This document shows, piece by piece, positions 1,917 to 64,000 of a stretch of 64,000 nt of DNA (within the stretch, counting starts at the first letter, position 1; each line of letters starts with the position of its first letter). Below the pieces are notes generated by a model that was given only the letters and a program-made list of their open reading frames with translations, was not told the origin of the DNA and ran no database searches. Origin of the DNA: Salminus brasiliensis (Eukaryota > Chordata > Actinopteri > Characiformes > Bryconidae). A program made the translations under genes and the position numbers. The stretch is taken from contig NC_132901.1 of assembly GCF_030463535.1 (NCBI RefSeq), positions 6,171,364 to 6,235,363 of the forward strand. The letters are read 5' to 3'.

Positions 1917-3830
1917 AGTCAAGTCAAGTGGGTTTTATTGTCATTTCAACTACATACAGAGTACACAGTGAAACGAAACAACGTTCCTCCAGGACCATGG
2001 TGCAACATAGACAGTGCATACAAGACACAAGTGCAACACAAACAAGTGCGGACAGACAACACAACACAGTACAGACCAGAGAATAATAAATAATTGACGG
2101 CAGTGTGCAAATTGTGCAATGTGTCCAGTGAGGTAGTAAAGTAAAGTTATTAGTGCAATGTTTTGTGCAAAAATGCTTCCCCTTTTTTCCTGGGGTAAAT
2201 GGTTGGAGAGAGAGAGAGAGGGAGAGTGTACATGTACCAGAAAGATATCAGTTCAGAAGTTGAGTTGTGTTGAGGAGTCTGATGGCTTGGGGGAAGAAGC
2301 TGTTGCAGAGTCTGGTCGTGTTGGACCGGATGCTGCGGTACCTTCTTCCTGATGGCAGGAGGGAGAACAGTCTGTGTGAAGGGTGGGTGGAGTCATCCAC
2401 AATGCTGGTTGCTTTGCGGATGCAGCGGGTGGTGTAAATGTCCATGACGGAGAGGAGAGAGACTCCGATGATCCTCTCAGCTGTCCTCACAATGCGTTGG
2501 AGGGACTTGCGGTCAGAGGCTGTGCAGGTCCCAAACCAGGCAGTGATGCAGCTGCTTAGGATGCTCTCTATGGTTCCCCTATAGAAGAGGGTGAGGATGG
2601 GTGGAGGGAGACGGGCCTTTCTCGGCTTCCGGAGGAAGTAGAGACGCTGCTGGGCTTTCTTGGCTGTAGAGCTGGTGTTCAGGGACCAGGTGAGGTTCTC
2701 CGCTAGGTGGACACCAAGGAACTTGGTGCTCTTAACGATCTCCACAGAGGAGCCGTTGATGTTAAGCGGAGAGTGGTCCGGTCTTGATTTCCTGAAGTCA
2801 ACAACCATTTCCTTGGTCTTCTCTACATTCCAGTGAAGGTTGTTGACTGTACACCAGTCTGTCAGCTGCTGCACCTCCTCTCTGTATGCTGACTCGTCGC
2901 CTTTGCTGATGAGACCCAGCACAGTTGTATCATCGGCGAACTTTATGATGCTGTTAGAACTGTGTTTCGCAACACAGTCATGAGTCAGCAGGGTGAACAA
3001 CAGAGGACTCAGTACACTGCCCTGGGGTGCCCCAGTGTTCATGGTGATGGTGCTGGAGCTGCTGTCCCCGAACCGGACTAACTGGGGCCTCCCTGTCAGG
3101 AAGTCCAGGATCCAGTTGCAGAGGGGGGTGTTGAGGCCCAGCAGGCTTAACTTCCTGGTAAGGTTCTGTGGGAAGATGGTGTTGAATGCTGAACTGAAGT
3201 CTATGAACAGCATTCTGACGTAGGTGTCCTTCTTCTCCAGGTGGGTAAGGGAGAGATGAAGGGTGGTGGTGATGGCATCGTCCGTGGAGCGGTTGGGACG
3301 ATATGCAAATTGCAGGGGGTCTAATGAAGAGGGCAGTTGGTTCTTGATGTTCCTCATGACTAACCTCTCGAAGCACTTCATGATGATGGGCGTGAGAGCT
3401 ACGGGACGGTAGTCATTGAGGCAGGACACCGTGGACTTCTTCGGCACGGGGATGATGGTGGTGGTCTTGAGGCACGTTGGGACAGTGGAGCTGCGCAGGG
3501 AGACGTTGAAGATGTCCGTGAGAACATCTGTCAACTGGTCTGCACACTCTCTGAGCACTCTGCCGGGGATGTTGTCTGGTCCTGCAGCTTTCCGTGGGTT
3601 GACTCTGCGCAGAGTTTTCCTCACGTCCACTGCAGTCAGGCACAACACCTGCTCGTCCGGCTTGGGTGTGATCTTTCTCACCAGCGTGTTGTTCTGTGCC
3701 TCAAACCGTGCATAAAAGTCGTTCAGGGCATCGGGGAGGAAGGCATCACTGTCACAGGACGGTGGCATTGTCCTGTAGTTTGTGATTTCCTGGATGCCCT
3801 GCCACATGTGCCGTGTAGGCAAAGTACATT
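1917..3830 (-). mobile_element. Rex1/Babar-like non-LTR retrotransposon, 5'-truncated
   Basis: A LINE copy on the minus strand. Its 3' end is at about 1917, marked by the short tandem motif (TCAAG)n seen in reverse and a 3' UTR containing a (GA)n run at 2207-2222. The RT frame lies at 2248-3858. Similarity to LINE protein stops near 3830 and no endonuclease domain follows, so the copy is 5'-truncated, as is usual for target-primed insertion. A near-identical copy of the 3' UTR is nested at 13256-13724. The Rex1/Babar name is from memory of fish RT proteins; another CR1-group LINE is the alternative. Confidence 0.8.
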
Positions 3831-3858
3831 TTATATTTAATCTGTTTTGAATGTTCAC
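2248..3858 (-). CDS. LINE reverse transcriptase, long open frame (536 aa)
   Basis: Retrotransposon reverse transcriptase, which would copy LINE RNA into DNA at a nicked target. Visible motifs in order: NPRKAAGPD (fingers), [46 protein letters not shown], the catalytic FADDTTVLG box, and the thumb region [13 protein letters not shown]. It ends in the usual C-terminal [16 protein letters not shown] block with stop TGA at 2248-2250. About the first 11-15 residues read into non-LINE flank, so the annotated start is not a true start. The frame is unbroken over more than 500 codons, unlike the other LINE pieces here, suggesting a young copy. It lacks the apurinic endonuclease, so it is unlikely to move by itself. 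Confidence 0.85.
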
Positions 3859-5049: not shown

Positions 5050-6247
<1,198 letters not shown>

Positions 6248-10439: not shown

Positions 10440-10584
10440 GGACTGGAGTTTTTTCTCTCAAATTCAGTAGAAGGAATTCTGGCATGGCTTCTGGCCATTC
10501 CTTCCCAGCTGGGGACCAGTTACCACACAGTCCTGTTAGTCTTTTAGCCACCCACCATTATTGGGCTGACCACTCTTCCAGTAC
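10440..10584 (-). pseudogene. Decayed C-type lectin domain exon
   Basis: Read on -, an acceptor-like CAG ends at 10585 and the next bases give YWKSGQPNNGGW, then LKD, a stop, and QDCVVTG. This lines up directly with the last exon of the lectin gene at 46075-46249 (NWEEGQPNNGGW...QDCAVT), including the same phase of one leading base. Beyond QDCVV the frame shifts: GK-EWPEA replaces the usual GK-TWxD, and the C-terminal cysteines are lost. No companion exons were found nearby. It is therefore a single leftover exon of a dead lectin gene. Confidence 0.7.
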
Positions 10585-10599
10585 CTGAAGCAATATAGA

Positions 10600-25475: not shown

Positions 25476-26272
<797 letters not shown>

Positions 26273-37995: not shown

Positions 37996-38761
<766 letters not shown>

Positions 38762-45030: not shown

Positions 45031-46074
45031 GGGAAAATTGTTCTGACAAAAACAACTGCAAGTGACAAATTAACCCCTTAATCCCTTTTAGCTTTCCCAC
45101 ATTCATTATCAACAAAGATAATGTTATTCAAACACTCATTTAGAAATATTTTAATAGTTCTTGTCACATAAACTCACTTCAATTGTGGATTTAAGCTTAT
45201 TCTATTAAAATATCTGTCTTCCTGTATAAAAAAAATGACCAGTCAAAAAAACATCCCAAAGCATCTATTTGAGTGATCTTATTCATATCATACAATTGGA
45301 GAAGACAAAATACTCACTTATGGGTTCAGAAAGAAATTGCTTTCCATCTGGGATCCAGTTTTTAGGTATATAGGTAATCTGAAATGTATGCCTGATTTCA
45401 CCTAGAAAGGTTCCACAATTTAGAACCAGATCAGACCCACTTAATTATAATAAAAGGGAATTCTTAATTATATGTAAATAGTTGCTAAGTACCAGTCACT
45501 TTAGTTTAGTTTTGTTCTTGGTATCATCTTATCAGTTTATATTTACTTGTAATGAGGGAATAATCAGTATAGGGTACACTATGGGGTAACACCCCTATAT
45601 GTGTATTACATTTACAATGTTTTGAAGTATGTAGATGTATACAGATATTTGTATGTATATAATTGTGTTTGCATACATGTGTGTCTATGTGTACTGGTGA
45701 AACTGGAAATGGATGTTGATGTGCCAATGATTAACCACCAGTGCAGATCCTTGGTGCACCCACAGGCATTGATCATGATAATGACAAAGGTACAGATTAC
45801 ATATTAATGTACTAGTGGTTCTCAAATCAATCTGTCTCAAATTGTCCATGCGTTTTCTGTTCTAATGCCAGACATACCAGGAAATGTCCTACTAAGAACA
45901 ATTGCTACATGTTACATGTGAACTAGGAGATGGACTAGAGGAAGACCCTAACAACTGAGAAACACAGAATTAAACAATGCGTGACATTCATTTTTAAAAA
46001 GGAGATAGCTTTTATTAATTAACTCCAACAATGATGATGAACTTGTTTGAAAGAGCATGTAGAATTAATAGTGA
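45031..46074. other. Lectin 3' flank
   Basis: No exon found. This is downstream of the lectin stop on -. AATTAATTAAAAGC-like sequence near 46000-46020 could hold a poly-A site but no canonical AATAAA on - was fixed. Confidence 0.35.
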
Positions 46075-46249
46075 TTATGCACTGCTGTCATAATCTAAGA
46101 AGCGAGTTTTTTTCTCACAGATCCAGTAGTTACTTTCATAGCATGACACATCATCCCATGTCTTCCCACGTCGAGATCTGGTTACAGCACAGTCCTGCCT
46201 GAATGCCCATCCACCATTGTTGGGCTGGCCTTCCTCCCAGTTGCTGAAG
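46075..46249 (-). CDS. Lectin coding exon 5: last part of lectin domain
   Basis: Acceptor TATGTGTGCAG at 46250 and stop TAA at 46075-46077. It encodes FSNWEEGQPNNGGWAF, RQDCAVTRS and KTWDDVSCYESNYWICEK, then a 13-residue tail. It carries the ligand-loop QPN and the WDD residues. Confidence 0.88.
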
Positions 46250-49142
46250 CTGCACACATAATATCCAATCATAATTTTAATGCCAGATGATATTTATATG
46301 CTAGATGTTAGACTCATGACTAATGAGAACCCAGCAGGCATTATAAGAAAGGTATTTTGTAAGGTCAAAGCTGCGTGTTTTCCAAAAGTTTACAATGAAT
46401 TGGATACAATGCAGCATTTTCAGTTACTGTTCCCAATTATATTGTTATTGTTATTTTGTGAGCATTTCCATGTTAATGTACTGTCTAATTTATCCCACCT
46501 TTAGAAAGATGCCATTGTAACAGGATAAGAAGCTTCAATGATGGATCAAGGTAAACTATTTGTATTAATCCCTTAATGAAGAAAGGCATTTTATTTCGTA
46601 ACTTCTGTTCAAACTTGGTTATAGAAGTTTGTAATAACACTTTTGGACCACCGGCGGGCCATAAAATTACCATCTACAAATGTTGTCTCAAAGCTGCTTA
46701 TATTATTATAGTTATTTTGTGAGCATTTCCCTTAACATACCTTAAAGGTTGTTACACAGACAGACAATGACAATACATGTCATACAACTAACCAACGATA
46801 CACAATCCTAGTCCCTGAGATTTACCAACCTGAAGAGTTTTCCCTTAACCATGTCAAGTCAACTGCATTTTTCTGTTTTGATTTTCCGAAATGGCTGCTA
46901 TGTATGTGTTTCATGACCAGCCACTGAAAGAACTGGTGAGTACTACAGAATGGTAGTCATTGAGGCAGAACACAGATGACGTCTTTAGCACAGGGATGGC
47001 AAACCTGCAGTCACCCACACCTTCTGGTTAGCGCGTATGATGATTGGAAGTCCCATTATCTGTGCACTTGATGAAGCCTGTCAATGACATTTAAGTTGTC
47101 CTGTGTAGCAGACTTCTTTAATAGAGCTCAATATGTGTGTTTACAACAGTCATGGAGTGCTAAGTTGGTTTCAGTGAGATGCAAAAATATTTAGATTTTT
47201 CAAACAAAGAGGTTGTGATGCCTTTTTCTCTAGGTAACCTTTTTTAGGAATAATCTTTTTGCATTTCATGTTTTATGCTTCTTTGTTACTGCAATACTTC
47301 CCCCTTTATTCTCCTCTTTTTTGTTTGAGCATCTGTTTTGACCTCTTTTTAAAGAAGTGTATAGTTAACAACAAGTAACACTTGAAATAACTTTACAGAA
47401 AGTGAGGTGGTCCAGGTTGGCTAAGTTTTTTCATGTTGGCATTAGCTGAATTGGTAGGAGAAAGGTGAAGTCGCTGCTTCATGTGCAATTATTGGTGGAA
47501 TTTCCCCACTGCGGGACTAATAAAGGACTATCTTATCTTAATTACATGCTGGAAGCCTGTTCCCTAATTACAGACAACTGAATCTAAATAGGAAGGTCCT
47601 TCAAGTAGTTGGCCACACCACTCTATGGTTTTATTACACCCCACCCCATGTAAAAAAAAGCACAAAAATGGAAAAGAATTGCAAAAAAAAAGAGCGCAAT
47701 ACATGAAATTCCGAGTTGCAAAAGATTTATCCTAATAAAGTGTTGCAAAAGAAACTCTTCATCTTTGTGATAGTTTTATTTTCTCATCACTAAAGATTCC
47801 CCAGAATTAGCATTCTGTAGGGGCCAAGCAGCTGAGGTAGGGGCAGGGTGCAGCCTTATATATGCCACTGATGTTTGTGTAAACAAGCTACAATGTGTTT
47901 ATTCCATCGAGTCACATAAACAATGTCCTGGTGGAATTTAATCACACTTCAAGTTTGCATGATTAAAAATGTATAAAACAATTGGATCAGGTGCACGGTT
48001 TGTAGGTTACTGACTGGTCCATTAGGTTAGTTCAGTGCTTGTCTTGCATTAGTGCTGTGTGAAATGTACACTGTGACAATGAGAATTACTGTAATCTTCC
48101 ATAATAAATATTAAACCTAAGTATGTAATAAGCCTGGGCATGTAGCTGGGTTAGATTAGCCTGTTTCATGGGTCTCGATTTTTGGGGAAATCTACACAAT
48201 ATAAAACCTCCATTTATAGTAAGGCTTTGTTAAATAAAGACTCAAAGTAAGAGATTAATGACCAGAACTGAATTCCCTAATTTCTTACCCTGTGGACAGT
48301 ATTGAGTTGTCCACCCATTTCCAGGACCCTTCTGTGTCCATGTCAGTCAGACCAATAAAAACATCAGCATCTCTGAAAGAACTCAGAGTATCCACAAAGT
48401 CCTGTAGAGGTAAAATAATACCAAATATGCACTAAATGATGAAAAACTTCCATTTCATATTTACTCATTTTGCTATTAAAGTCACTTAAAGCCAGATTAA
48501 TTAGATGTTTGTAGCATATGTTGCATGCACTGAAGCACCCAGAGCTCATTTATCAACATGTGTACAGAAACCTTTTGCACATGTACAATTAAGGGAGTAG
48601 ACTATGCAAATATGCAAACATATATTTATAGCCACCAGTAAATATATAACAGCCTGGAGTGAGTTACCAGGGTCCAGTAGATAGTAGATCTAAATAGTAG
48701 GTTTAACAGGCATTCTTTTAGCTCATGGGCAGAAATTATTTTTCTGGATTTAAACATACAAACAAAATAAAAACAGTGTTGTTGTAGTTCAACTGCTTGA
48801 CCACTAAAGACTATCTCCAATCTTGACGTTACCTTTAACCAATAACCAAAATCAGTAACAGCTTTTTTAAGGGAAGTGAGGATGATTATTGAAGTTGATT
48901 AGTGTAGCTTTGCCATTCTGGACAGCATGAGCAGTTCTATCTTTGAGTTTATTTTTGATGTTCCAGGTCTTCTTCACAGGCACAGATCCATTACTGATCT
49001 TTATTTGCACAAACATTAGTAAAACTGGTAGCTTTGGGTATAGATATTTTGCAAGAGACATAAACAGCAGCTTAGCATTTCTCAAAAAAAATGTTTTTAA
49101 AAAGGTTTTACTGTTTAATAGATGGTTATGTTTTACATGTAC

Positions 49143-49193
<51 letters not shown>

Positions 49194-49696
49194 CATAATA
49201 ACATACCTGTTCCTCTTTGCTGTTTATGATCACCAGGTGTCCTTGTATACTTTCACATTTTTTTTTGCTCTCAGTCCAGCTCTTCCTTTCAGTAGAAATG
49301 TGGTAAACACTGCCGTTGAAATATATCCATCCCTGCTTGGTGAAACTGTCTGTATATTACATTACCAAACACAAACACTTACATTACTCATTACAGCCAG
49401 CAAGGCATGTCTGCTTCTTACTGTATTCAATAAGTATTGAACTATTAAAGCCCCTGCGAACAGTTTAAATGTTCAAATTTTTGTTTTAATAGTACAGCTG
49501 TGAAATACTTTTTTACCAGTGTCATATTTGAGAACTATATACAGTTGCAAGCAAAAGTTTGGACTCCTAATTTCTGTTACTATCATTAGGTATGAAATAT
49601 CAAACTATCCTATACCCTATAAATTATCAAAGGGTATACAATAAAAAGAACTATAGAATTATAATATAATATAACATTATATAATATAAAATAATC

Positions 49697-49779
<83 letters not shown>

Positions 49780-52700
49780 TATGCCTGCAAAGCTGTGGAA
49801 AGATGTAAAAATAAAGCAAAATATTTTTGTGACACCTGCACAAATCACCTGAAAGAGTCATTAAAAGAAAACATAATTTAGCCTGAGACATCTTTAAAGG
49901 AACACATCTTCAAGTGTTAAGCACAGAGCTGTATCATTCATGCTGTATTTTTGTTTTGCAACCAGTGCTGGAAACATTTCAGTGGTGGAGAACAGAATAA
50001 ATTCAGTTATATATCAGCAGGTTCTGGAAGCAGACACCACACAGTCTTAAAAAACAGAAAAAGAAAAGAGGGTGGCTTTACAAAATTATACTGAGCCTAA
50101 ACAAAAACATCAAGCTGAAGGTTTTGCCATGACCCTCACAGTTCCCAGACCCTAAACATTATTGAAAATCAGTGAACAGACCTTGGTATTTTCAAACTGT
50201 AAAATGTGGAAATTTAAAGTAAATAAATAAATAAATAAGTAAGCTTAAAAAATAGAAATCTTTAACCTTTTGTCATGTTTTAGCAGTAGCATATTTTTTA
50301 AACATATTTTTAACACAGTATATACACCCTTATTTTTTTGTTACATGGATTCCACACAGTTGGCTGATTAGATAATGCATGTTGGTGTAGGTGTACATGT
50401 GTTTCTCATAAATTTTTTTAAAGCTGAAAAAGCTCCCTGGCAACGTACCAATGGCCAATAATAGAGATGGTACAGATGTCACCTAAGACAAATTTCATTC
50501 TGCCCAACTCAAATCCAGATTTTAAATAACAGGTACATACAGGGGCTTTAATGTTTATCACAATCACATAAAAAGGTCAAAACAGAATTGGTTATTTCAC
50601 ATAGCTAATCATGTTGAATCACATTTTCTCTAATACTTCTTTAGATTAAAAAAACTAATTCAAACAAGCTTTGAATGATAGCACACAGCTCTCTCTGATA
50701 CTCTCATTGCAGCAATTAAAACAGCAATAAAGACTAAGAAGTGTCAAAGCTAAACAAAACAAAATAGGAATGTAAAGATGGGGGGATTTAATATTCCAAT
50801 ATTGTTTCCATGTCACCTGTATTCCAGTCCAAAATACATCTGAAAATAACCCACCAAGCCATGTGAATACATAATAAATAAAATTGTACATATTTTAAAG
50901 AAATTGGTTCTTTACCCACTATACTGAGCTTATTCTGCAGGCCATCTGTCTCAGTCAGGTTGTTGCAACTAGTCTGTAACTGGTCTCTCTCTGCAGCCAG
51001 GTTGTTGTAACTGGTGTGTAACTGGTCTCTTTCTATAGTTAGGTTGTTGTAACTAGCCTGTAACTGGTCTCTTTCTATCAACAGGTCGATGTACCTGGTC
51101 TGTAAATGGTCTCTCTCTGCAGTCAGTCTGCTGTGAACGCTCTGTAACTGGTCTCTCTCTGCATTCACATTGTTGTAACTAATCTGTAAGTGGTCTCTCT
51201 CTGCAGTCACGTTGTTGTAACTAATCTGTAACTGGTCTCTCTCTGCATTCACATTGTTGTAACTAATCTGTAACTGGTCTCTCTCTGCAGTCACGTTGTT
51301 GTTACTAATCTGTAACTGGTCTCTCTCTGCATTCACGTTGTTGCAACTAATCTGTAAGTGGTCTCTCTCTGCAGTCACGTTGTTGTAACTAATCTGTAAC
51401 TGGTCCCTCTCTGCAGTCAAGTTGTTGTAACTGATTTGTATCTGGTCTCTCTCTACAGTAAATTTGGTGCAATGAATCTGTAATTGGTCTCTCTCCGTAG
51501 CCAAGTTGGCATAACTGGTCTTTAACAGGTCTCTCTCTATGGCCAAGCTGGCATAATTGGCCTGTAATCGGTTTCTTTCTATAGCCAGATTATTACAACT
51601 GGGTTGTAACTGGTTTTTCTTTTTAGTTGGGTTATTACATCTGTTCTGTAACTTGTCTGTCTCAATAGTCAGATTATTGTAACTGGCCTGTAATTGATCT
51701 CTCTCAATAGTCAGACTGCTGTAACTGGTCCGCAACTGGTCTCTCTCAATAGTCAGATTGCTGTAACCGGTCTGTAACTGGTCTCTTTCTATAGTCAGGT
51801 GGGAGCATTTGGCTTGTAACTGGTCTCTTTCTATAGTCAGTTTTGCATAACTGGTCTTTAACTCGTCTCTCTTGATCCACAGCAGTGTGATAGCAGTCAG
51901 CTGAAGAACACACAGCAATCCCAGAAACACTGCAGCCAGTCTGTAAAGTCTGCTCCCTGCAGTGGGAAATAGATATAGATATGCATTACTTTCACAATTA
52001 GTAATTGTTATTTCTCTACAGACCCTCTTCACAATAAAACTAATATATTGAGGCACTCTCTCTCTTTCTCCTGTCATTTCTTTTATTTATGTCTCATTCT
52101 TGACATGTGGCATTTGATCACAAATTGAATCGATTGGTTTGATCCATTGGTTTGGCCATATATGACATATATAAATGTTTCCTTAAATGCTTTAAAACTA
52201 AGGGGGGAAATGTGAAAGCTGCTTTTTCACAAGACAGAGTATTTATGAACATGTTAATCTGCACAAGATTTATTTAATCAGAGAATAATAATCCCTTTTT
52301 AAGTAAAATAAGATGAGAGCCTTTTCTTGCTATAAGCGGCAGTTAGCATTGCAGATCAATATGTTATAGTCAATCTATTACACATTTATAATAAATTTAT
52401 CTTCACTGGGCTGATACTGATTAAGATAAGATAAGATAAGATAATTATAATAATAATGTATTAGTCCCACAGTGGCGAAATTCACAGTGTCACCGCAGCA
52501 AAGGGATAGCAAGACACTCAGATGCAAATCGTAGATAAATTACCAACATATACACAATTTATATAATAAAAGTAAAAAAACTCAACAACATTACAATATT
52601 ATTTACAGATTATTTACAGATAATTGCAAACTGACCCTTAATTGTATATGGGGGGGCATTGCACATTGTATTTTTACATTGAGGGACCTCTATTCCCTGA

Positions 52701-54196
52701 ACATGTGTTTATAGTTTAAGTGTGTGTGCATGTGGTCCGCTGGGAGCAGTGCTGGTCGTGGAGTCTGACGGCAGCAGGAAGATATACACACTTGGGGTGA
52801 AGCAGCCTCACTAAAGGAGCTACAACTGAACAATAAGACCAATAACCTATATACTAAGAATGCAAAGGAATAGTTGAAAAATTAAAGTTGATTGATTAAT
52901 GCAGTCGTTTAAGACTGAAGATGATATGCTAGTAATACTGTCACATCTTATCACAGTAAATACATGCAAAAATCTTAATTTGTTTTCTTCAGAAATTGAG
53001 TGAAAAATTATATAAACAAGTTAAACAATTGCATGTTATGAATGGACCTTGTTTAAAAACAAATGTTATCATTTGCATACATCCTGCTTTGTAGCACTAT
53101 TCCACTTTTAAACTGGACCACAATGTTACAAACATTCTAATCAACAGAGTAAACAATTCTAAATTAGCAACTTGGCAAATCGGCCACCCAAATAAAAAAG
53201 CTACTCGTGACAAAAGTGGATTTAGTCAAATTTGAAGGTAACAGTTTGATGTCTGCCACTCAAGAACAAATGTTAAGATCATGTGGTATAAACACAAAGG
53301 GAAATGCTAAAACATAGACACAAAGGCACTCATATTTGTATCAATAAAGGTTTCTCTGAAGCTGTACATTTGAAAAGAAACAAACTCTTACCCTCCAGAA
53401 AATATTCTGGAATTTATCACCAACTCACATATCACCTTAAAAAATATGTTAACTGAACATTTCGTATGCACTAGGTAACAATGAAACCACCATATGAATC
53501 ATTGTTGACCTATTTGAAGCACATAGCATATTAAATCTTATTGTATCAGGGTATGTGTATGTTCACTGATAATAAACTGCTGGAAAAGCGCACTACTTAA
53601 ATTTTGGAACAAAATATCTAAACATATTGGTGTTAATAGAATAATCAAATATCTTCTGCCAAACTAATTAACCTGTATTATACCTTGATTTATTCATATC
53701 GCTCCTATTACAATACCCATTGCAAACTGTTCACATACCTCAAAATTGCTTTGTTAGAATGTTACGGTCAGCAAAATACTTTGCAAGTAAGCAAGTATAC
53801 TTAATGTGTATGAAATTAATCACGATCAAATACAACAGTTTATTATTTTTTTTACACATAACCTCCATCCTGACTGCTTTGAAACCAGCCATTTAGGTGG
53901 TAGCTTGTTCAAAGCTTTTCCCCAAAATCCATGACATGACCTGCCAAACTCTGTAAAATGACATTTACTTAATATTCTTTGTTGCTGACTGACTCTAGGG
54001 TACTAGGATATGTGTTATTACTTTCTCTTCCTTTCTGCATTTCTTGCACTCTTTGCCTGCTAAGATTAGACCAGACACATTTAAAAAGCTACATACCTCT
54101 GTTTGGAATCGCTGATTTCTTCTTTGTGTTGGTGTTCTTCGTCTCTGTGTCATGACCTGTAACAGTGTCTGGACATTCATGTGTAACAACTGCCAT
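46075..54196 (-). CDS. Type II membrane C-type lectin, CD209/DC-SIGN-like, five exons
   Basis: A predicted cell-surface glycan-binding receptor. Coding exons on -: 54097-54196, 50916-51956, 49207-49349, 48289-48401, 46075-46249. All have GT donors and AG acceptors and their phases match (1, 1, 0, 2), giving 523 residues. Domains: cytoplasmic tail 1-39 without tyrosine; transmembrane helix about 40-61 (LAAVFLGLLCVLQLTAITLLWI, 22 residues); stalk 62-369 of 22 tandem 14-residue units of type ERDQLQxSYNNLTx (two heptads each); C-type lectin domain about 386-513 with the four canonical cysteines 412, 486, 502, 510, WIYF near the start and FIGLTD in the core. Calcium-site motifs are QPN (474-476) and WDD (497-499), not EPN/WND. 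Eight NxT sequons lie in the stalk. Mean stalk length is far above that of human DC-SIGN's seven 23-residue repeats. Extra 5' exons cannot be excluded. Gene model is from sequence reasoning only. Confidence 0.85.
46950..47000 (-). mobile_element. Tiny Rex1-like RT relic in lectin intron
   Basis: 'gtagtcattgaggcagaaca' and 'cacagggatgg' match the antisense LINE at 3410-3455. Too short to bound. Confidence 0.45.
47505..47550 (+). mobile_element. LINE 3' terminus in lectin intron
   Basis: 'ggaatttccccactgcggga ctaataaagg' followed by (cttat)n is the 3' end of the same repeat type seen inverted at 52425. Confidence 0.55.
48289..48401 (-). CDS. Lectin coding exon 4: middle of lectin domain
   Basis: Acceptor CCTCTACAG and donor G|GTAAG. 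It encodes DFVDTLSSFRDADVFIGLTD then MDTEGSWKWVDNSILSTG: the FIGL..D....W.W.D core of a C-type lectin domain. Confidence 0.88.
49147..49192. repeat. (TA)n microsatellite
   Basis: A pure TA run in the intron after exon 3. Confidence 0.92.
49207..49349 (-). CDS. Lectin coding exon 3: first part of lectin domain
   Basis: Acceptor ATATACAG at 49350 and donor CAG|GTATG at 49207. It encodes SFTKQGWIYFNGSVYHIS then ESKKKCESIQGHLVIINSKE. The other possible acceptor (AAGCAG nearer GGATGG) breaks the frame from exon 2. Confidence 0.82.
49541..50230. mobile_element. Decayed Tc1-like element in lectin intron
   Basis: The start 'tacagttgcaagcaaaagtt' is a Tc1-type end. The word run 'gaaggttttgccatgaccct' and 'attgaaaatcagtgaacaga' at 50118-50180 is the antisense-free LNIIENxW region of a transposase. 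Interior otherwise unreadable. Confidence 0.4.
49701..49780. repeat. Palindromic (AAT)n/(ATT)n microsatellite
   Basis: About 13 AAT units switch directly to about 13 ATT units at 49741, so the tract is self-complementary over about 80 bases. Confidence 0.95.
50916..51956 (-). CDS. Lectin coding exon 2: transmembrane helix and coiled-coil stalk
   Basis: Acceptor CCCACTGCAG then GGAGCAGAC at 51956; donor GTGG|GTAAAG at 50916. 1041 bases. The transmembrane helix comes first, then 22 units of 42 bp at 50950-51873. Units 11-17 (51160-51453) are the most alike, so the repeat has expanded or been homogenised there. A heptad pattern with L at the d-like positions predicts a parallel coiled coil, as in oligomeric lectin stalks. 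Confidence 0.88.
51160..51453 (-). repeat. 84-bp higher-order repeat inside the lectin stalk
   Basis: Units 12-17 alternate NNVTA and NNVNA, so the recent copying unit is a 28-residue dimer, three times over. Unit 11 is the related NNLTA type. Confidence 0.85.
52425..52830 (-). mobile_element. LINE-type 3' end with (GATAA)n terminus
   Basis: It begins with four 'gataa' copies and then 'gtattagtcccacagtggcg aaattcac'. It continues through 'gcaaagggatagcaagacac', shared with 28335-28510, to 'ggagtctgacggcagcagga'. It lies in the first lectin intron. Confidence 0.65.
52831..54096. other. Lectin intron 1, remaining part
   Basis: AT-rich sequence without a recognised exon or repeat. Confidence 0.4.
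54097..54196 (-). CDS. Lectin coding exon 1: cytoplasmic tail
   Basis: ATG at 54196 (context gacATGg, with an in-frame TGA four codons upstream) to donor G|GTATGT at 54097. It encodes 33 residues plus one base, including HDTETKNTNTKKK, a tail type I recognise in fish CD209-like lectins. No ITAM, ITIM or YxxL motif. Confidence 0.75.
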
Positions 54197-60614: not shown

Positions 60615-60861
60615 CATTTTAGTAAATGGATACGCCAGATATGTAATTCTACTTTCTAGCTAAAGCTAGAGGTACTGTTATTTTCATTCAGTTCCATTTG
60701 ATCAGTGAACAATTGGAGATTAGGATACCCCCCCCCATTTTAGTAAATGGATACGCCAGATATGTAATTCTACTTTCTAGCTAAAGCTAGAGGTACTGTT
60801 ATTCTCATTCAGTTCCATTTGATCAGTCAACAATTGGAGATTAGGATTACCCCCCCCCCCC
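60615..60861 (+). repeat. 121-bp tandem duplication with poly-C junctions
   Basis: Two copies start at 60615 and 60736 with CATTTTAGTAAATGGATACG and end in poly-C runs of different length. Only two or three substitutions separate them (for example gtgaac/gtcaac). Confidence 0.95.

Positions 60862-63095: not shown

Positions 63096-64000
<905 letters not shown>

Follow-up and report, generated by a model that had tools for sequence, protein, structure and literature searches.

The lectin gene in the stretch of fish DNA analyzed here (hereafter the window; 64,000 bp, C28:6171364-6235363 of a 1.07-Gb genome in 103 contigs) is, as far as its sequence tells, a diverged teleost CD209-like (group II) lectin, a known kind of receptor rather than a new kind, and the 42-bp unit from which its stalk is built behaves as a coding minisatellite that lengthens and shortens the stalk largely irrespective of which lectin head it carries. 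Because this unit is a trait of the family, the length of the window stalk is one point on a scale of repeat gain and loss.

Structure of the Lectin Gene

The gene lies on the minus strand, and its five exons join into 1,572 nt, that is, 523 codons plus a stop codon, each of the four introns begins with GT and ends with AG, and the phases fit, which bears out the five phase-matched exons of the original prediction. Exon 1 (54097..54196) carries the start codon and the cytoplasmic tail MAVVTHECPDTVTGHDTETKNTNTKKKSAIPNR and ends at a GT donor in phase 1, and exon 2 (50916..51956; 1,041 bp), which is bounded by an AG acceptor and a GT donor, encodes the membrane helix and the entire stalk. Exons 3 (49207..49349) and 4 (48289..48401), delimited by splice sites and Pfam matches, encode the first third and the middle of the lectin domain, and exon 5 (46075..46249) encodes the end of this domain with the motifs QPN...QDC...WDD, followed by the stop codon. 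A candidate poly(A) signal, AATAAA (46011..46016, same strand), was read about 60 bp beyond the stop codon. The order of the protein is a tail, a membrane helix, 22 in-frame 14-residue units, and a C-type lectin domain, which is the layout of teleost CD209-like group II lectins (short tail, membrane helix, stalk, and a single C-terminal lectin domain). The exon plan (a tail exon, a membrane-plus-stalk exon, and three lectin-domain exons) is likewise a feature of the family: one open frame holds the membrane helix and the stalk in the paralogues also, and homologues of exon 1 lie upstream of paralogues. Judged by its joined frame and splice sites, the gene is genuine, a fish lectin gene of five exons.

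Stalk Units and Predicted Helix

The stalk comprises 22 in-frame 42-bp units of 14 residues each (residues 66–373; 50938..51861, minus strand), identified by frame reading and by TRF, which reported a 42-bp unit in 22.1 copies at 50945-51872. Twenty-two tandem 14-residue units had indeed been predicted, in a unit phase that differs from ours by 12 bp. The coding frame contains no stop in 308 codons, compared with 25 and 19 stops in the 307 codons of each of the other two frames. We also recovered the eight NxT sequons previously counted in the stalk, and a ninth sequon, NGS at residue 392, lies just ahead of the lectin domain.

Column 1 of the unit is Leu in 21 of the 22 units and Ile in one, and in column 8 all but two units have Leu or Val, the exceptions being Pro and Phe. 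In the heptad register d-e-f-g-a-b-c, columns 1 and 8 are d positions and the a positions are mostly Tyr or Cys (column 5) and Arg (column 12); hydrophobic residues occupy 98% of the d positions (43/44) and 45% of the a positions. The hydrophobic pattern peaks at periods of 7.0 and 2.34, and the power at period 3.5 is weaker, being reached by 17 of 1,000 shuffles; for paralogous stalks the corresponding counts per 1,000 are 0 (L044), 1 (L030), and 110 (L043), so that by this measure L043 lacks the 3.5 signal. This periodicity points to a helix bearing two hydrophobic stripes, one strong and one weak. Because hydrophobic residues are in the minority at a, an oligomer of such helices might be a loose one or might not form.

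AlphaFold2 was run on exon 2 alone as a single chain with no alignment and predicted a helix at residues 2–106 of the exon, a break at 107–112, and a second helix at 113–340, covering 333 of the 346 exon residues with the membrane helix included, although two of the five models averaged below 60 pLDDT and lone helices are easily overpredicted. The predicted break (residues 141–146 of the protein) falls in unit 6 (LQNRCNNPTKKKNQ; 51610..51651, minus strand), in which a Pro occupies heptad position d; only two of the 308 stalk residues are prolines, and they are confined to units 6 and 7. The original figure of roughly 45 nm supposed a fully helical stalk, and in this respect the single-chain prediction disagrees. 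A continuous 45-nm helix is accordingly rejected, given the break predicted at the proline-bearing unit 6. At about 0.15 nm per residue, simple arithmetic gives the two extracellular helical parts lengths of about 12 and 34 nm.

The eight sequons per 22 units, the nonhydrophobic majority of the a positions, and the recurrence of NLT in paralogue units would also suit a flexible, glycan-coated spacer, mucin-like in effect, in which NxT glycans hold the chains apart. Such a spacer is, however, difficult to reconcile with d positions that are hydrophobic in 43 of 44 cases and with a helix predicted over nearly the whole exon, and in the register used here the sequon Asn falls at heptad c, a solvent-facing position that could carry a glycan on a coiled coil. 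We consider the spacer unlikely and judge a helical, oligomeric rod with a hinge to be likely.

All six cysteines of the stalk (residues 84, 140, 154, 196, 238, and 364) occupy unit column 5, that is, heptad position a, and the 20 other stalks that we compared have zero to two cysteines each. Disulfide pairing between chains is possible for cysteines at this position of a parallel coiled coil. Tyr and Cys are separated by a single transition, so the stalk cysteines may be the product of drift, and disulfide linkage of the chains is a reading that we hold tentatively, at somewhat under even chances.

Growth of the Array

Units 12–17 (51148..51399, minus strand) were found by unit comparison to consist of three 84-bp double units that are identical at 80–82 of 84 bases; single units inside this tract share 39–42 of 42 bases, whereas all other unit pairs share 21–36. 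The tract is the most recent growth of the array, and the near identity of the 84-bp blocks beside the divergence of the rest indicates recent growth by double units upon an old, diverged set. Near-identical tracts of this kind are also where an assembly could collapse or expand an array, but only six of the 22 units are so alike, and 252 bp of near identity is short for the long reads that 103 contigs over 1.07 Gb suggest; we regard it as highly improbable that the array length is an assembly artifact.

Between units, pN is 0.26 and pS is 0.41, which fits constraint, with the qualification that the columns differ widely and the units are not independent of each other. Column 1 is nearly fixed (pN of 0.04), and column 8, a d position, has a pN of 0.31 and is under no strong constraint.

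Stalk Lengths among Paralogues

A search of the genome with the lectin domain gave at least 153 scored matches, other lectin types among them; among the matches listed, many single lectin exons lie on C28 (4.08–5.12, 6.10–6.25, 23.3–23.4, and 24.25 Mb) and on C9 (9.5–9.75 Mb). A search with the stalk gave 145 matches. The C28 clusters contain the best of these, others lie on C29 and C14, and weak ones probably come from unrelated coiled coils. The window gene and its paralogues share one type of 14-residue unit, LTxERDQLQTSYxN, and NLT recurs in the units of the paralogues.

In the loci examined, we identified by pattern 21 distinct membrane-plus-stalk peptides, counting identical peptides once, and expressed the length of each stalk as the run of hydrophobic residues every seven positions (one miss allowed) divided by 14, a measure with an error of about one unit-length each. 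Further stalk matches lie outside this census, for example, at C28:4368568 (open frame of 306) and on C29 and C14. Within the census, stalks of this one genome range from 1.5 to 29 unit-lengths. Five of the 21 exons reach at least 17 unit-lengths (L051, 29; L050, 27; the window gene, 22; L044 [as L026], 21.5; and L030, 17), a share that is biased upward because L050 and L051 were picked for the length seen in the stalk search, and the other sixteen have 1.5 to 8.5. Both L051 (C28:4811500-4813000) and L050 (C28:4090500-4092000) have open stalk frames followed by downstream lectin exons with the motifs EPN...EDC...WAD and EPN...EDC...WND, respectively. By exon length, L044, whose donor was chosen by frame and GT only, exceeds the window gene (1,074 vs. 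1,041 bp).

The window stalk had been called unusually long, a description that does not survive this comparison: of the 20 other stalks, two are longer than 22 unit-lengths and a third roughly matches it, and we reject the window stalk as the longest of its kind. From the original prediction it still holds that the gene encodes a type II lectin of the CD209-like kind, that its long stalk is made of heptads and has NxT sequons, and that its repeat is unlike the 23-residue one of DC-SIGN. Neither the unit nor a long stalk is special to this gene; both are traits of the family. Our search of open-license papers in PMC returned no paper on this 14-residue stalk repeat, and stalk-unit strings had no match in the paper texts, which is a weak result as such sequence is rarely printed as text.

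A separate array, L049 (C28:24271100-24274100), has about 65 copies of a 42-bp stalk unit after a CD209-like membrane helix and was left outside the count of 21 stalks. Stops in the three frames of this 3-kb stretch number 77, 51, and 35, and frame shifts recur along the array; reading on from the membrane helix, one meets a shift after about eight units. We take it to be a broken, runaway coding minisatellite array.

Lectin Head and Calcium Site

The lectin domain of the window gene matches Pfam Lectin_C at residues 402–512 (e value 7.7e-24), and most of the 16 further Pfam rows are coiled-coil families that fall on the stalk. Among solved structures, the domain is best related to lymphocyte antigen 75 and other mannose-receptor-type chains, Mincle, DC-SIGNR, and DC-SIGN. 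In alignments with the structures, the calcium site reads GQPN...QDC...WDD in the window gene compared with GEPN...EDC...WND in Mincle; over this stretch the best match among the solved relatives is C-type mannose receptor 2, with QPDN...ENC. The original prediction put forward an extended multivalent glycan sensor as a possible role; two calcium-ligand glutamates are glutamines in the window gene, so sugar binding by this head cannot be assumed. The change is common to one neighbor, L029 (QPN...QDC...WND), and QPN is also read in a dead fragment at 10443-10589 of the window. Most other paralogues have EPN with EDC or EHC, and most have WAD at the WND site of Mincle; the exceptions to EPN, EDC, and EHC are L043 and L045 (EPS), L032 (ESF), L046 (ESK), and L031 and L033_2m (ENC). 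Calcium sites therefore vary across the CD209-like family of this genome.

Phylogeny of the Lectin Domains

We constructed a lectin-domain tree from 24 of the 26 gene models after dropping L041_1m and L045_2p, in which an exon is missing; the last exon is partial in the rows L045_1p and L047_1m. The bootstrap of this tree is not settled and the branch of the window gene is long (0.99). The window gene pairs with L029 (99/96; 88/93 in an earlier tree of 14 rows). This sister gene (L029/L015; C28:6253483-6254813) has a lectin domain that is 59–60% identical to that of the window gene and shares its QPN...QDC, but its stalk has about 1.5 unit-lengths compared with 22, and it has WND where the window gene has WDD. 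A second clade (99/94) consists of L052 (the head of L050), L030, and L044, all long-stalked. L053 (the head of L051) lies within a group of six (99/96), and a stalk of 4 units belongs to at least one of these six genes, the first of L036 (as L028). The occurrence of long stalks in three clades suggests that stalk length and lectin head are largely uncoupled, and it may reflect either a threefold gain or repeated loss from one long ancestor.

Cytoplasmic Tail and the State of the Gene

Paralogue tails, of the type MVVEIYESADAVRGHDPNTETEAVNTRRK, have a Tyr where the window gene has a His. Ten paralogue tails from seven of the searched loci were matched at an e value less than 0.05. Nine of them read (I/M)YES and so include this Tyr; the match to the tenth (L043, 1162) covers only residues beyond that site, and another alignment suggests that the Tyr is missing there too. 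Tails were matched only beside short-stalked or other relatives, and at the same threshold the tail search found none for L029, L030, L044, or L050. No tyrosine is encoded in exon 1 of the window gene; the nearest is Tyr38, where the membrane helix begins, and the paralogues share it.

These substitutions could mark a decaying or nonexpressed paralogue in which the frame is still open and the changes in the head, the calcium ligands, and the tail Tyr reflect relaxed selection. The long branch of the lectin domain (0.99), the Glu to Gln changes at two calcium-ligand positions, the Tyr to His change in the tail, the dead relative within the window (10443-10589), and the frameshifted giant array elsewhere on C28 are all in keeping with decay. 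However, every splice site and phase is intact, the 308 stalk codons are free of stops, column 1 of the unit is Leu except for one Ile among the 22 units, and the four lectin cysteines are retained; moreover, the Q-N-Q pattern is also present in the sister L029 and so looks inherited rather than the result of private decay. In our view these observations leave decay an unlikely account of the gene.

Comparison with Known Systems

In Fugu, group II includes DC-SIGN-F1 to F8 together with XLCMCL ("eXtra Large Coiled coil region containing Membrane C-type Lectin"), and the DC-SIGN-type fish subgroup is described as overrepresented, partly clustered, and without clear tetrapod orthologues (BMC Genomics 2004; PMC514892). 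XLCMCL, a group II fish lectin named for an extra-large coiled coil, is like the window gene in kind, so long coiled-coil fish lectins are already known; the likeness is one of name and group (PMC514892). The tongue sole CD209 is also a teleost CD209-like receptor, in which a coiled-coil stalk bears a single lectin domain, but it is shorter (265 vs. 523 residues; coiled coil at 65–122) and, unlike the window gene, retains the glycan-binding residues Glu220, Asn222, and Glu228 (PMC5618497).

The necks of DC-SIGN and DC-SIGNR (CD209/CLEC4M) form tetramers and are built from 23-residue repeats, each with a conserved proline and with hydrophobic residues at a and d; neck genotypes of DC-SIGNR differ between people, and a reach of 328 Å is quoted for these receptors (PMC2971551). 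The window gene resembles them in outline, with lectin heads on an extended repeat neck of helical segments with proline between, and differs in its 14-residue units, in having Pro only in units 6 and 7, and in its many polar a positions. DC-SIGN itself, a tetramer that binds mannose or fucose glycans, has the EPN motif and the calcium-ligand glutamates, and the long-form lectin domain of CD209/DC-SIGN has an extra N-terminal cysteine pair. The window gene has QPN...QDC in place of EPN and the glutamates, lacks the 23-residue proline repeats of CD209 proper, and also lacks the extra pair, with only four cysteines after the stalk (412, 486, 502, and 510). By repeat, EPN motif, and extra cysteines, then, it would not qualify as CD209 proper despite the likeness in outline to DC-SIGN/DC-SIGNR.

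A Model for the Receptor

The explanation that best joins these observations, and that we hold with good confidence, is a diverged CD209-like receptor with a minisatellite stalk that forms a hinged, possibly disulfide-linked coiled-coil rod of about 46 nm. The stalk would form a parallel coiled coil, its d positions filled by Leu, Val, Ile, or Phe (save for the Pro of unit 6) and its a positions mostly by Tyr or Cys, or Arg, and the six a-position cysteines could join the chains covalently. The proline-bearing unit 6 would act as a hinge about 12 nm above the membrane, from which the next 34 nm of stalk would bring the heads beyond the glycocalyx, where the clustered heads would bind a putative ligand multivalently. 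An exon 1 without tyrosine argues for capture or adhesion, or for signaling via a partner, rather than for signaling by the tail of the receptor itself, and the receptor probably acts in one of these ways; capture or adhesion in place of tail signaling is a possibility that we put forward with reserve.

At the level of the family, a more speculative reading, which we think doubtful at present, is that of height-graded sensors: the 42-bp minisatellite would set the distance of the head from about 3 nm (1.5 unit-lengths) to about 60 nm (29 unit-lengths), and length would evolve by slippage faster than the heads, with long forms in at least three clades. To this the window copy would add a hinge, cysteine staples, and a changed calcium site, making it a covalent, long-reach receptor for a new ligand. 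The ligands within reach of a surface lectin should depend on the length of its stalk, and related heads on 1.5 to 29 unit-lengths of one repeat form a natural length series that would make reach versus avidity testable with one repeat and one head. This family-wide series is a more interesting object than the window gene alone.

Other Features of the Window

The dead fragment noted above (10443..10589, minus strand) corresponds to a related exon 5 with QPNNGG and internal stops; it was the sole lectin-exon match in the window outside the gene (tblastn, e value up to 0.01) and was also found in the genome lectin search, as C28:6181806-6181967. Four C2H2 zinc-finger frames with 84-bp repeats lie around the lectin gene (5087-6244, 25479-26156, 37999-38691, and 63179-64000). 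A reverse-transcriptase frame at 2251-3858, followed by a domain that Pfam names ALKBH8_N, presumably belongs to an ordinary element of the non-LTR type. At 60615-60858, TRF identified a 121-bp unit in two copies with a 97% match.
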